64,000 nt of DNA from Pseudoalteromonas sp. EB27 (lineage in GTDB: Bacteria > Pseudomonadota > Gammaproteobacteria > Enterobacterales > Alteromonadaceae). Where the stretch lies: assembly GCF_001974875.1 (NCBI RefSeq), contig NZ_MTQD01000014.1, positions 62,001 through 126,000 of the forward strand, given 5' to 3'. Below, one piece after another: positions 152-64,000 of this stretch. A program made the translations under genes and the position numbers. The notes below the pieces were generated by a model, which saw nothing but the letters and a program-made list of their open reading frames with translations, was not told where the DNA came from and ran no database searches. Position 1 is the stretch's first letter. Each line of letters starts with the position of its first letter.

Positions 152-171
152 TTAATACTCTCCAAATGAAA

Positions 172-191
172 AAAAGGCCTTTCGGCCTTTT
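172..191. terminator. Bidirectional rho-independent terminator
   Basis: The inverted repeat AAAAGGCC-TTTC-GGCCTTTT has an A-run on one side and a T-run on the other. It can therefore terminate both the gene entering from the left and the convergent ompW gene. Confidence 0.85.
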
Positions 192-236
192 AACACACAT
201 TGTAATTGGGTAACTACGTACTATTTTATATATGCT

Positions 237-51971: not shown

Positions 51972-52865
51972 GTGCCAGTTAAAGTATCGTATTTTTTAAT
52001 GGTTCTTATATGGTCTACTACACCACTGGGTATAGTGTGGAGCAGTGACACTGTATCGCCAACACTTGCAGTATTAATGCGGATGCTGGTGGGGCTATTT
52101 TTAGGCGGGTTAATTGTTGCTATTACAAATATTAGAGTGCCTTGGAGCAAAAATGCATGCTTACTTTATTTTTATTCGAGTATAGGTATTTTTGGCGGTA
52201 TGTTGTTGAGCTATATGGCAGCTAAAACAGTCCCTTCGGGTATTATTTCGCTTATGTTTGGCCTTGCTCCTATTTTGTCAGGGTTGCTTGCTCAGCAATT
52301 ATTAAATGAACCTAAATTTAGCCCGATTAAATTAGTTGCGTTAGCGTGCGCCTTAATTGGCTTATATTTCGTTAGTTATAACCAAGTGCAAAGCTCGCAA
52401 ACTCAAGGGCTCGGGTTACTTTATGTGTTTATGGCTGTCTGCTTTTTTAGTTTAAGTGGTGTGATGATCAAGCGCGTGAAAATTGCGATTCATCCTATGG
52501 CAACAACATTTGGCGCATTGGTTTTTGTAACCCCACTCTTTTTTATTGCTTGGTGGTTATTAGATGGTGAATTGCATATACAAAACTGGAGTGCAAAATC
52601 ATTGTGGGCTATTGGTTATTTAGGAATATTTGGATCTTTAGTAGGGGCTTTGGCGTATTTTCATGTGCTGCAAAACCTAAATGCAAGCACGGTATCACTT
52701 ACTACACTTATCACCCCTAGCTTTGCGTTAGGCTTGGGAGCTTGGCTAAATAATGAGTCATTGAGCCAAGAACTAATAATTGGTGCGGTTATTATTTTAA
52801 TTAGTCTAGGTTTTTTCCAATTTGGTGATAAGTTTTTAAGGCGAAAGAAAGTAAACACAAATTAG
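51972..52865 (+). CDS. EamA/DMT superfamily transporter
   Basis: 297 aa with ten predicted helices in two EamA halves (about 5-135 and 145-285); typical MVLIWSTTPLGIVWS start and GxL-rich helices. A metabolite exporter or importer; substrate unknown. GTG 51972 has AGGGA upstream. Its 3' end has been tandemly duplicated (see the repeat at 52811). Confidence 0.83.
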   Translation: MPVKVSYFLMVLIWSTTPLGIVWSSDTVSPTLAVLMRMLVGLFLGGLIVAITNIRVPWSKNACLLYFYSSIGIFGGMLLSYMAAKTVPSGIISLMFGLAPILSGLLAQQLLNEPKFSPIKLVALACALIGLYFVSYNQVQSSQTQGLGLLYVFMAVCFFSLSGVMIKRVKIAIHPMATTFGALVFVTPLFFIAWWLLDGELHIQNWSAKSLWAIGYLGIFGSLVGALAYFHVLQNLNASTVSLTTLITPSFALGLGAWLNNESLSQELIIGAVIILISLGFFQFGDKFLRRKKVNTN

Positions 52866-52938
52866 CTTTACTACATTTTTTCAATTTAGTGATAAGTTTT
52901 AAAGCGAAAGAAAGTAAGCGCAAATTAGCTTTACTACA
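52811..52938. repeat. Tandem duplication of the EamA gene 3' end
   Basis: Unit 1 (52811-52875, 65 bp) contains the last 18 codons and stop of the EamA gene. Unit 2 (52876-52938, 63 bp) repeats it with about 6 differences including two 1-bp deletions that break the frame. A short third start (TTTTTTCTATTTG) follows. Unit 2 fills the whole gap and covers the motY stop codon. Confidence 0.9.
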
Positions 52939-53812
52939 TTTTTTCTATTTGAATAATTAAACGACGGTTTTTGTCTCGGCTTAAAATGTTATCGTTATTA
53001 TCAACAAAGCGTTTTTCGCCCAAACCGGTTGTTTGTACTTTTGTTTCATCAACACCCAAGCTCACCATATAATCTTTTATAGTTTTGGCGCGCTTGCGCG
53101 ATAAATCTAAGTTATTCCAGCGTCCGCCATAACTATCGGTGTATGAGTCAATACTAATGGACTCTATGCTTGCATCATTTTTTAAATACTCAGCAATCTT
53201 ATCAAGACGTTGTTGCGAGGATTTAGTTAATTTACTGCTGTTAGATTGATAGTTCATTACAGTAAACGAAATATCTTCAAAGCTGTAAGGGAGTAGCTCA
53301 TCACGGCATTGTAAAAAAGCCCAGTAAGCTTGTTTAAAGTTTACGCTCGATATACCAACGGCAATTTTATCGGCACTGTTTTGCCAGTCTTGATAATAAA
53401 AAGTAGGGTAGTAGCCTTTTTCAAGCTCGGTAAGCATTTCCCATGCGGTTTTATTGCCTAGCTCGCCATCAAACTTTTTAAGTAATTTCATATTTGCAAT
53501 ATCGCGAGCGGGCAATCCTGCACGCCATGTAGGTGGCACTGCTTTTAAACCTGCAATTGCGTAGTTATCTGGGCGTACAACCATATCTAAATTAAATGTT
53601 AAGTTTTTATTTTTACTTGCAGAAGCTTTAAATATAGCTTCACCGTAATAAGGAACCTCATGATTTAACTGGCATTGTAAGCGCGTTGTTTTAACGACTT
53701 CCCAGTTGGAGTTGTCTTGGGTTGCTGTGTATTGGCGCATAGCAGCTTGCGAGTGAGCACTGCAAAGCACTGCACTTATACTAAGGCTAATAAATAACAA
53801 CTTATACTTCAT
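52934..53812 (-). CDS. motY: Sodium-type flagellar protein MotY
   Basis: 292 aa. Signal peptide (cut near SQA), MotY-specific N-domain (QYTATQDNSNWEVVKTTRLQCQLNHEVPYYGEA, WRAGLPARDIANMKLLKKFDG, TAWEMLTELEKGYYPTFYYQDWQ) and a C-terminal OmpA-like peptidoglycan-binding domain (TDSYGGRWNNLDLSRKRAKTI, DKNRRLIIQI). It forms the T ring that anchors PomAB/MotX stators of the polar flagellum. GGAGAG precedes ATG 53812. Its last codons lie next to the tandem repeat and its stop is inside it. Confidence 0.93.
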   Translation of the reverse strand: MKYKLLFISLSISAVLCSAHSQAAMRQYTATQDNSNWEVVKTTRLQCQLNHEVPYYGEAIFKASASKNKNLTFNLDMVVRPDNYAIAGLKAVPPTWRAGLPARDIANMKLLKKFDGELGNKTAWEMLTELEKGYYPTFYYQDWQNSADKIAVGISSVNFKQAYWAFLQCRDELLPYSFEDISFTVMNYQSNSSKLTKSSQQRLDKIAEYLKNDASIESISIDSYTDSYGGRWNNLDLSRKRAKTIKDYMVSLGVDETKVQTTGLGEKRFVDNNDNILSRDKNRRLIIQIEKM

Positions 53813-61272: not shown

Positions 61273-61455
61273 AATTAACTCCTTCCAATAAATAGTAAAA
61301 GTAATGTGCTTACAAACAGACCTTGGGGTAGGGGATTATTTTTAAAGGGTAAAAAAGAGTTTAAATGAGCTAATTTCAAAAAATACTTTAATTAAAGTGC
61401 GATGCTTAACTGAGTATTAAAATTAGCTGCTCTGGGAGTGTTTTTTTAGACCTTT

Positions 61456-61779
61456 TTATTCAACCATTATACTCACCTCGGTCACATAACTACGGCGGTA
61501 TAGACTAATACGTACTTTACGTTCTTGGTAATTATAAAACAAAGTGCGATATGTATTATTGCCATTTATTTTTAAAGGTTCCCCCAATTTTTGCTGATAA
61601 AAGCGAGTGATATCAGAAATTGAATCCGTTAAATAACCAGTGCGTACCATTGGGTATTCGCTTGCTACGTCCATCGTTGTAACAAATTCTTCAGGAAGTG
61701 GGATTTCAGTGACGTTTTGGCTGAGTGCGTTAAACGATAGAGTGCATAGCAATATTATTAAAAATGCTAAAGTTTTCAT
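61456..61779 (-). CDS. Small exported protein of unknown function
   Basis: 107 aa. Signal peptide (MKTLAFLIILLCTLSFNALS|Q), then a single small domain with VASEYPMVRTGYLTDSISDITRFYQQKLGEP, a pattern seen in short periplasmic proteins of this order but without a named function to me. Next to the displaced mnmC fragment. Confidence 0.7.
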   Translation of the reverse strand: MKTLAFLIILLCTLSFNALSQNVTEIPLPEEFVTTMDVASEYPMVRTGYLTDSISDITRFYQQKLGEPLKINGNNTYRTLFYNYQERKVRISLYRRSYVTEVSIMVE

Positions 61780-61842
61780 TAGAGTCCTTTGAGTAATAAA
61801 TTCCTTTTATTGGTACTTATTTTACCTCAATAAGCACCGATG

Positions 61843-61950
61843 TCATTTAAATTTTATTACGAATTAAATCTCGCACTATAAACCGGGCAGGGTGAATAGC
61901 TTGGCTTACACGTTCGCTTAATGGCCGGGGTTCGTTATTTAAACAGCTTA
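61843..61950. repeat. Displaced direct copy of the mnmC 3' end (left copy)
   Basis: 108 bp equal to 63632-63739 except A/C at 61898 and C/G at 61925. It spans from 4 bp past the mnmC stop to about 34 codons inside the gene. Past 61950 the sequence is unrelated to mnmC. The rest of the 318-bp gap (61780-62097) shows only a hairpin at 61812-61838. Confidence 0.95.
61847..61950 (-). pseudogene. mnmC 3' fragment
   Basis: Contains the last 34 codons and stop of mnmC in frame, with both substitutions at third codon positions and silent (Ala and Arg). It is cut off from the rest of the gene and fused to unrelated sequence, so it cannot give MnmC. Confidence 0.85.
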
Positions 61951-62097
61951 TTAAGCGACGCATTACACAAATCGTAATATGGCTGCACTCCAGTTATACA
62001 TTGAAGTTTGAAAAAGTTACGCAAATAAAGAGCGTTGAATTAAGTTTGCTCATTAGGCATAGTGCTAATGTAAATTAATACTTTAAAAGGAATTTCT

Positions 62098-63579
62098 ATG
62101 AAAAATAATATTATCAAAGTACTTTTAATTTGTACTACCTACCTGTGCTGCGTATTTAACCTGCAAGCAAAGCCACTATTAACGGCTTATCCCGATGCAA
62201 AACTAGAGAATAAAGTCATTTTAGAGGGTGAAGAAGCACAGTTTGTATCAGCCTTTAACCCTGCGCTAAAAAAATCTCAGCAGTTTGAATATAAAACATT
62301 TATTGGTGATGTAAGTCATTTTTCTTATCAAGTAAAGAATGTTGCTTCTTTAAAGGTAATGGAAAACTACAAAAACGCTTTAAGTGATGCTGGATTTAAA
62401 GTTTTGTATACATGCGCTTTAAGTGACTGTTATGGCAGGCGAGAAGATAAATTGCTGGCTGAGGAGTCGAGCTATTTCAACGTTTCTAGTTATTACGGGC
62501 AACCACATTATATTTATGCAACGAAAGGAGATCTTCCTGAAGCTGCCATTTCGTTATTTGTTGGACAATATAAAAATACGACACAAGTGCTTTTGACGAC
62601 AGTTAATATTAAAGAAATTGAAACGGGGCTAATAAAAGCTGATTTTGAAGCATTCAAGAAAAAATTTAGTAATAAAATAAAAAAATCTACACATGAAGAT
62701 CTTAAAGGTTCTGCAGATCATCCTTTATTAAGTCGCTACCCTGGTAGCTATATTGAGGATTATCAAAATGTTGATTATGAGGAATTTAGTATTCCAATTG
62801 GCAAATTTGATAAAAAAACGAAAGCCACTCCTGTGCTTGATGTTACTGGGGATTTAACGCGAATTACTTATATTGCTAATAAAGTATCGACGTTAAAAAT
62901 TTATCATAACTATGTGAGTGCTTTAACCAAAGAAGGTTTTGAAAGTGTATTTTCTTGTCAAAAAGATGAATGCGGTATAAAAAGAAAAGAGATTCAAGCA
63001 TTAGGCGATAAGTTGGCGATTAAATCTGTTTATAACTACTTTCGCGAACCTAGATATCAAGTCATGAAAAACACTGTAAATGAGCAAACTACCTACGTTG
63101 CTTTTTTTATCGGTAACTATAATGGCGATTCCCGTATTCAGCTTTTAGTTGCTCGTACAGAGCCTTTAGTGACAGGCTTAATAGAAACGAATAGTGATAA
63201 AGTACTTGAGCAGTTAGAGCAAAAAGGAAATGCGTCTATTTACGGTGTTTTATTTGATTATGATAAAGCCACTATCAAAGCTGAATCTAAAGAGGCGTTA
63301 GATATTATTGCTGAAGTTATGGAAAAAAATAAAAAATTGAGTTTATATGTTGTTGGTCATACCGATGATAAAGGTTCGCCTGATTATAATTTAAACCTTT
63401 CAAAGCGCCGTGCAGATGCGGTTGTTAGCGCATTAATTGCTGATTATGGGATAGCAAAAGCAAGATTATTAGCTCAAGGAGCGGGTCCTTATTCACCCGT
63501 TGCAACTAATAAAAATGATTTAGGTCGTGAACTAAATCGCCGTGTTGAATTAGTTGAAAGGTTGTCTAGTTCAAAATAA
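62098..63579 (+). CDS. DUF4892-like / OmpA-domain outer-envelope protein
   Basis: 493 aa. Signal peptide (cut near LQA|KP). Two homologous repeats follow, about 30-200 and 210-365: each has a start like L(L/S)..YP, a GD(V/L).(H/R).(S/T)Y..... K.(A/S)(S/T)LK....Y..AL...GF....(S/C).. pattern and a late NY..... (AR)TEP or VNI block. The C-terminal domain (about 380-490) is OmpA-like, with VLFDYDKATIKAESKEALDII, GHTDDKGSPDYNLNLSKRRADAVV and GRELNRRVELVE that bind peptidoglycan. It is the only gene between the two mnmC 3' copies, which suggests it was gained by that insertion. Confidence 0.82.
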   Translation: MKNNIIKVLLICTTYLCCVFNLQAKPLLTAYPDAKLENKVILEGEEAQFVSAFNPALKKSQQFEYKTFIGDVSHFSYQVKNVASLKVMENYKNALSDAGFKVLYTCALSDCYGRREDKLLAEESSYFNVSSYYGQPHYIYATKGDLPEAAISLFVGQYKNTTQVLLTTVNIKEIETGLIKADFEAFKKKFSNKIKKSTHEDLKGSADHPLLSRYPGSYIEDYQNVDYEEFSIPIGKFDKKTKATPVLDVTGDLTRITYIANKVSTLKIYHNYVSALTKEGFESVFSCQKDECGIKRKEIQALGDKLAIKSVYNYFREPRYQVMKNTVNEQTTYVAFFIGNYNGDSRIQLLVARTEPLVTGLIETNSDKVLEQLEQKGNASIYGVLFDYDKATIKAESKEALDIIAEVMEKNKKLSLYVVGHTDDKGSPDYNLNLSKRRADAVVSALIADYGIAKARLLAQGAGPYSPVATNKNDLGRELNRRVELVERLSSSK

Positions 63580-63596
63580 ATTATGTTTTAATTTAT

Positions 63597-63628
63597 ATGC
63601 ACATTAGATCTATTGTTTTAATGTGCAT
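63597..63628. other. Hairpin between the OmpA-domain gene and mnmC
   Basis: Stem ATGCACATTA / TAATGTGCAT with a 12-nt loop, no clear U-run. The left copy region has its own unrelated hairpin at 61812-61838. Confidence 0.5.
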
Positions 63629-63631
63629 ACC

Positions 63632-63739
63632 TCATTTAAATTTTATTACGAATTAAATCTCGCACTATAAACCGGGCAGGGTGAATCGCTTGGCTTACAC
63701 GTTCGCTTAATGGGCGGGGTTCGTTATTTAAACAGCTTA
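63632..63739. repeat. Direct repeat, copy inside intact mnmC (right copy)
   Basis: Right-hand member of the 108-bp pair with 61843-61950; 106 of 108 bases identical. It forms the true 3' end of mnmC. Confidence 0.95.
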
Positions 63740-64000
63740 CGAGGTGGTCTGCACTTAACGGTGCGCTACACAACGCGCGTGCGCCAAAACCGGTAAAAAT
63801 ATGCAGGCCTTGTTGTGGTTTATTAAGTTGCTCATATTGGTAGCGTTTACCTAAACGTAGATTAGCAAAAGCCATTATATAATCACTTTGCTCGCACCAT
63901 TGCCCTGCCATTGGCAGGTGATCTATAAATGTGCAGCGAACAGCCGCTTTTGCCGAGTTTATATTGCCAAGGGTGGAGGCAAATTCACTTTGCTTATAAA
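63636..64000 (-). CDS. mnmC: C-terminal part of tRNA modification enzyme MnmC (5' end outside window)
   Basis: The frame stays open to the right edge and gives about 120 residues. FIDHLPMAGQW and GLHIFTGFGARALCSAPLSADHL match the end of the FAD-dependent oxidase domain of MnmC, which finishes 5-methylaminomethyl-2-thiouridine at the wobble base of tRNAs. Most of the gene, including the methyltransferase domain, is outside. The stop is at 63636-63638, inside the direct repeat. Confidence 0.9.
   Translation of the reverse strand, partial: YKQSEFASTLGNINSAKAAVRCTFIDHLPMAGQWCEQSDYIMAFANLRLGKRYQYEQLNKPQQGLHIFTGFGARALCSAPLSADHLVSCLNNEPRPLSERVSQAIHPARFIVRDLIRNKI

Follow-up and report, generated by a model that had tools for sequence, protein, structure and literature searches.

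An OmpA/DUF4892 gene between two mnmC 3' ends in Pseudoalteromonas: a stranded gene end that appears old, with a probably renewed junction

Campbell-type insertion of a circle by a single crossover leaves the insert lying between direct repeats of the target, which is itself rebuilt. Integrative elements that enter the 3' end of a gene restore the gene end and leave the displaced end stranded. Passages of two papers (PMC3240628, PMC5361080) describe homology-facilitated illegitimate recombination of foreign DNA, with a homology anchor on one side and a non-homologous joint on the other, and there older gene ends left behind are proposed for the Vibrio T6SS immunity arrays. Circularisation and a single crossing-over are also mentioned in the abstract of PMC3240628. 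DUF4892, which is found at the locus described here, appears in a passage of PMC7716261, and our literature search returned no paper treating mnmC together with Pseudoalteromonas.

The analysed stretch of DNA (64,000 nucleotides, hereafter the window) contains two direct copies of 108 nt on the minus strand, at 61843–61950 and 63632–63739, with a spacing of 1789. Repeat comparison confirmed an earlier sequence-only reading in that the copies are identical at 106 of 108 positions; they differ at 61898 (A, against C at 63687) and at 61925 (C, against G at 63714). The right copy is the true mnmC 3' end, as had been claimed. It closes an intact mnmC of 669 codons (minus strand), which fills 63636–64000 and, beyond the end of the window, extends to position 65645 in the same numbering. 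The left copy is a stranded 3' end of mnmC. Only one gene was called between the copies, again in agreement with the earlier reading (62098–63579, plus strand). It encodes a 493-aa protein with Pfam matches to OmpA (1e-19) and DUF4892 (1.6e-7), and reading by eye suggests an N-terminal signal peptide. By eye, the N-terminal part of this protein also looks like two related DUF4892-like halves, of which Pfam marks one only.

On the left lies P107 (107 aa; 61456–61779, minus strand), which has no Pfam match at 1e-3 and directly follows mnmC in relatives with an empty site. The names given to neighbouring genes (NAD(P)-binding, TauE-like, fabB-like, greB, carB) are our presumptive assignments. A 10-bp inverted repeat, read from the sequence at 63597–63628 between the convergent OmpA gene and mnmC, is a possible shared terminator of the two; promoter and terminator scans gave no more than shuffles did, and this inverted repeat was absent from the scan output. 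RNA families gave no match at gathering score. A search of the 64 kb for direct repeats (seed 14, minimum 45 nt) returned, besides the mnmC pair, only a 54-nt tandem at 52834. There, a 54-base unit is present twice within 52834–52950, with a 63-base spacing and 93% likeness. The mnmC pair sits inside a 163-kb contig and its arrangement recurs in three other genomes, so an assembly artefact behind the structure is unlikely.

Both mismatches between the copies are transversions at third codon positions and are silent in the mnmC reading, as had been observed before. Their use as proof of selection is not supported. The pair 61898/63687 is a polymorphism among relatives, the left allele occurring in 12 and the right allele in 3 of 21 other clade ends, and at 61925/63714 the left copy has a base of its own (left allele 0/21, right allele 20/21). 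Silent changes make up 23% of the single changes here and 16% of the transversions, and the chance of two silent changes calculated from these fractions is 3–5%. The differences lend weak support to selection and are compatible with descent of the left copy from a different functional mnmC allele, an origin that the history preferred below also supposes.

The repeat was searched in 108 Pseudoalteromonas genomes, and 73 matched. Two matches per genome were observed only in the window's genome and in G060. The mnmC region was read in 61 of the 73 matching genomes (our own and 60 others), so that the survey covers every matching genome except the 12 that matched most weakly and none of the 35 that gave no match. 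The order P107, mnmC fragment, OmpA gene, mnmC was found at 4 of the 61 loci (the window, G005, G084 and G060), and in these four genomes the insert is flanked on both sides by an mnmC end or its remnant. The empty sites that the sequence-only reading proposed to look for do exist: the OmpA gene is absent from the close relatives G015, G086 and G017 and from further loci. In G015 and G086, about 70 bases and nothing else separate P107 from mnmC, and in G017 P107 matches in part only. In a tree of mnmC proteins (61 rows, built by a quick method), 22 members make up the clade of the window, with the four carriers standing among non-carriers. The window and G005 stand beside the empty G086, G084 is grouped with G015 and G017, and the placement of G060 is unsure because of its long branch.

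A profile search of the 61 loci for a second mnmC end returned only the window and G060. Other cargo between mnmC ends, for which a search had been proposed, was not found at these 61 loci with that profile, which also failed to detect the decayed ends in G005 and G084. Five further weak profile matches (E 0.18–5.1) were taken as chance. At locus L059 (G100), the tail of P107 directly follows the mnmC stop region and the N-terminal part is missing. The tblastn pattern of P107 is the same in G105, G091 and G095, and P107 seems to be truncated in this group.

In all four carriers, the sequence separating P107 from the OmpA gene can be aligned with the 3' end of mnmC, and at the same place the mnmC fragment is decayed in G005 and G084 and partly decayed in G060. 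We aligned the four remnants locally with five mnmC ends, and all 20 comparisons scored above every one of 300 dinucleotide shuffles (window 164–200; G060 122–169; G084 and G005 42–68). As the profile search misses them, the homology of the G005 and G084 remnants rests on pairwise alignment; these two fragments are alike at 100 of 107 positions. Because decayed forms lie at the same place in G005, G084 and G060, the stranded fragment is, as judged from these alignments, old and shared among the carriers. The left spacers of the carriers resemble those of empty relatives, where P107 abuts mnmC.

An alignment gap of roughly 11–15 bases falls in the same region in all four carriers. In the window, the 108-base match stops at this gap and a further piece follows on the minus strand. 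It can be aligned over 61951–61985 with mnmC ends, as well as with the remnants in G060, G084 and G005, and we place it at 61951–61975 with an approximate right edge. Against six mnmC ends, with 2000 single-base shuffles for each, 3, 11, 11, 13, 50 and 280 shuffles scored as well as this piece, and owing to these mixed counts we regard it as a probable rather than a certain remnant. The left copy had been described as stranded and fused to unrelated sequence. The first part stands and the second is doubtful, as the sequence after the left copy is probably an older, diverged mnmC remnant. On this reading, 108 bases would be the length of a renewed part and not the edge of an insertion.

These results bear on a recent single insertion into the strain's empty mnmC end by an unspecified vehicle. 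Such an event would account for the 106/108 identity, for the empty relatives and for the rebuilt mnmC, and the earlier description is upheld in that the right copy rebuilds mnmC and no integrase lies between the copies. However, decayed remnants occupy the same place in three other genomes, a probable older tail follows the left copy, no integrase lies between the copies, where the OmpA/DUF4892 gene alone was called, and 61400–64000 gave no match to phage records. A recent single insertion is largely refuted, and we hold it to be improbable. It survives only as the re-entry of an existing block into an empty strain, which would yield a product identical to that of the preferred history given below.

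The dS values of the OmpA gene differ from those of most genes around it. Between the window and G060 its dS was 0.46, whereas five of six neighbours, namely mnmC, P107 and three genes on the left, had values of 1.28–1.56; the fabB-like right neighbour was as low (dS 0.42, dN 0.010). Between G084 and G060 the value was 0.42, against 0.50–1.85 for all six neighbours. The window–G084 (0.22) and G005–G084 (0.15) values were each below those of 8 of 9 neighbours, and a 121-codon gene had a dS under that of the OmpA gene in both G084 pairs with data. The exception was the window–G005 pair, in which the OmpA gene (0.17) was above all nine neighbours (0.01–0.16). By dS, the OmpA gene is therefore younger than most of its neighbours in 4 of 5 genome pairs, and for this reason we consider that the block probably moved by recombination between lineages. 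The import proposed by the sequence-only reading is thus upheld as probable movement between lineages and not supported as a recent single arrival, given the decayed fragments of G005, G084 and G060. Codons 101–200 of the OmpA gene had a dS of 1.61 against G060, which indicates that the gene itself is mosaic. The P107 of G084 has a dS of 0.64 to its G060 counterpart and of 0.73–0.92 to its counterparts in the window, G005 and G015; being nearest to G060, it looks as if it had come with the OmpA block.

Homologues of the OmpA gene were found at E 1e-20 in 23 of the 108 genus genomes, and 17 of them are at least 58% identical. Thirteen of these 17 adjoin mnmC (the four window-type carriers and nine genomes of another clade) and four lie elsewhere, so a constant linkage of the OmpA gene to mnmC was rejected. 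In the second mnmC-linked clade, no mnmC remnant was found in the 5 of 9 carriers that were aligned, nor in any of the nine by profile. In an OmpA protein tree of 21 rows (the 17 good homologues and four distant ones), the four carriers (100/99) join the four genes placed elsewhere (90/98) and not the other mnmC-linked clade. This topology indicates that the mnmC linkage may have arisen twice or been lost. As the OmpA genes nearest to those of the carriers sit away from mnmC, a donor with OmpA–mnmC adjacency is not directly seen among the close homologues. At loci L100, L101 and L104, the OmpA gene of G050 and G036 lies beside what we take to be a greB/carB-like region, and G039 has a 70-residue fragment in the same neighbourhood. 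A family-wide search found a homologue in 8 of 196 genomes, 7 of them of other genera with 34–46% identity. A protein search gave 818 relatives, with many gammaproteobacterial ones among the 120 matches listed. The OmpA protein matched 201 plasmid records, all below 60% identity and none with 80% coverage, and 58 sequences of solved structures, through the OmpA domain region only.

The adjacency in nine genomes of another clade may be old, and it would suit a local tandem duplication of the OmpA gene with the mnmC end, followed by loss of the left OmpA gene. We judge this to be very improbable. The left P107–mnmC junction resembles that of empty-site species, which a fresh deletion would not recreate, dS differs between the OmpA gene and its flanks, and none of the 61 loci holds the full tandem. 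The sequence-only reading had tied local duplication to copies that pair by strain and to a lack of empty sites; the first of these holds for the window and for G060, but empty sites exist.

The left junction of the window is mosaic. Over 61772–61851, 19 sites separate the empty G086 from the carrier G005, and the window follows G086 at 17, neither at 2 and G005 at none; the comparison ends at 61851 as, beyond it, the mnmC ends of empty sites align to the right copy. With G005 and G086 as parents, the window tract 61488–61851 was equalled by 2 of 5000 permutations, and with G005 and G015 the tract 61772–61838 was equalled by 9 of 5000. Similar tracts were seen in other carriers: G005 is G084-like over 61756–61839 and G084 is G060-like over 61430–61679 (both 0/5000). 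In a second mosaic stretch, the window's own mnmC at 63662–63807 is G086-like at 11 of the 12 sites separating G086 from G005. Eight such permutation tests were made, uncorrected for number, and all eight gave at most 9/5000, which indicates that the mnmC locus recombines often.

A competing reading is intrachromosomal gene conversion, in which the strain's own mnmC end overwrote the old remnant with the right copy as template. Two genomes, the window's and G060, have a pair of clear copies, and in each of them the closest match of the left copy is the right copy of the same genome. In the window, the left copy matches its own right copy at 102/104 positions and G015 at 100/104, a closeness that gene conversion would also give. 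The right copy matches G015 at 100/104 and G086 at 99/104, so both copies are about equally near to relatives, contrary to the expectation of a local left copy and a foreign right copy. Over the first 72 bases compared, the G060 pair has one allele in common that none of 60 other ends carries. In the window, however, no allele common to both copies is rare (at most 1/21) among other clade ends. Moreover, the start of the empty-site tract, near 61772, falls 71 bp beyond the repeat, in sequence for which the right copy offers no counterpart, and conversion from the right copy leaves that part unexplained. We consider gene conversion unlikely, yet deserving of weight; conversion of the repeat alone with a separate exchange of the flank is possible. 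Over 61852–61950 the left copy matches the right copy at 97/99, G015 at 95/99 and G086 at 92/99, and either the right copy or an empty-site allele would fit as the source.

To the following history we assign a probability of roughly 0.58: an mnmC end was stranded by an old recombination, the block then moved between lineages, and renewal of the junction followed later in the window's lineage. The ancestral site would have been P107–mnmC. Donor DNA in which an OmpA gene was linked to the donor's mnmC end would have recombined with the recipient through homology within mnmC, and the far end of the donor DNA would have joined inside the recipient's mnmC end, or else a circle entered by a single crossover. 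Either course would give P107, the recipient's mnmC end, the OmpA gene and an intact mnmC. The joint at which one-sided microhomology would be expected has decayed. Recombination in shared flanks would then have carried the block from species to species, and the fragment would have decayed. Later, within the lineage of the window, an empty-site allele would have taken part in an exchange that ended near the remnant gap and renewed 61772–61950. This tract comprises the P107 start and empty-site-type spacer, seen by site comparison up to 61851, and then an undecayed mnmC end to 61950 through which we infer that the exchange extended; a junction renewed in this way would explain why the repeat looks fresh. 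The last exchange may have run in either direction, because the product is the same whether an empty-site segment entered a carrier or a carrier block entered an empty strain.

The block may instead be an integrase-free cassette, although we see this as a rather remote prospect. RecA recombination between the repeats would loop out the OmpA gene with one mnmC end, and the circle would re-enter empty mnmC ends. Loop-out would leave a perfect empty site, and each re-entry would rebuild mnmC and renew both repeats. If true, this would account for the patchy presence of the gene and for repeats that are fresh in some species and decayed in others, and it would show that a gene can spread although it brings no mobility gene along.

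On the preferred history of an old stranding followed by renewal, one stranded gene end can be followed as a series across related species, from empty to fresh, partly decayed and decayed. Near-identity of two repeat copies is no proof that an insertion is recent, as recombination can renew an old scar.

Compared with Campbell-type insertion, no circle, replication gene or vector sequence was seen here. Compared with integrative elements, there is no integrase between the copies and the decay of the stranded end varies between species. The likeness to homology-facilitated illegitimate recombination lies in the proposed one-sided homology anchor and the stranded gene end. Unlike in the Vibrio T6SS arrays, one housekeeping gene end lies here beside an envelope gene, and the joining is inferred from the sequence. 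The mechanism is probably ordinary DNA recombination among related marine bacteria rather than that of a dedicated mobile element, and the locus is probably a well-preserved example of it.
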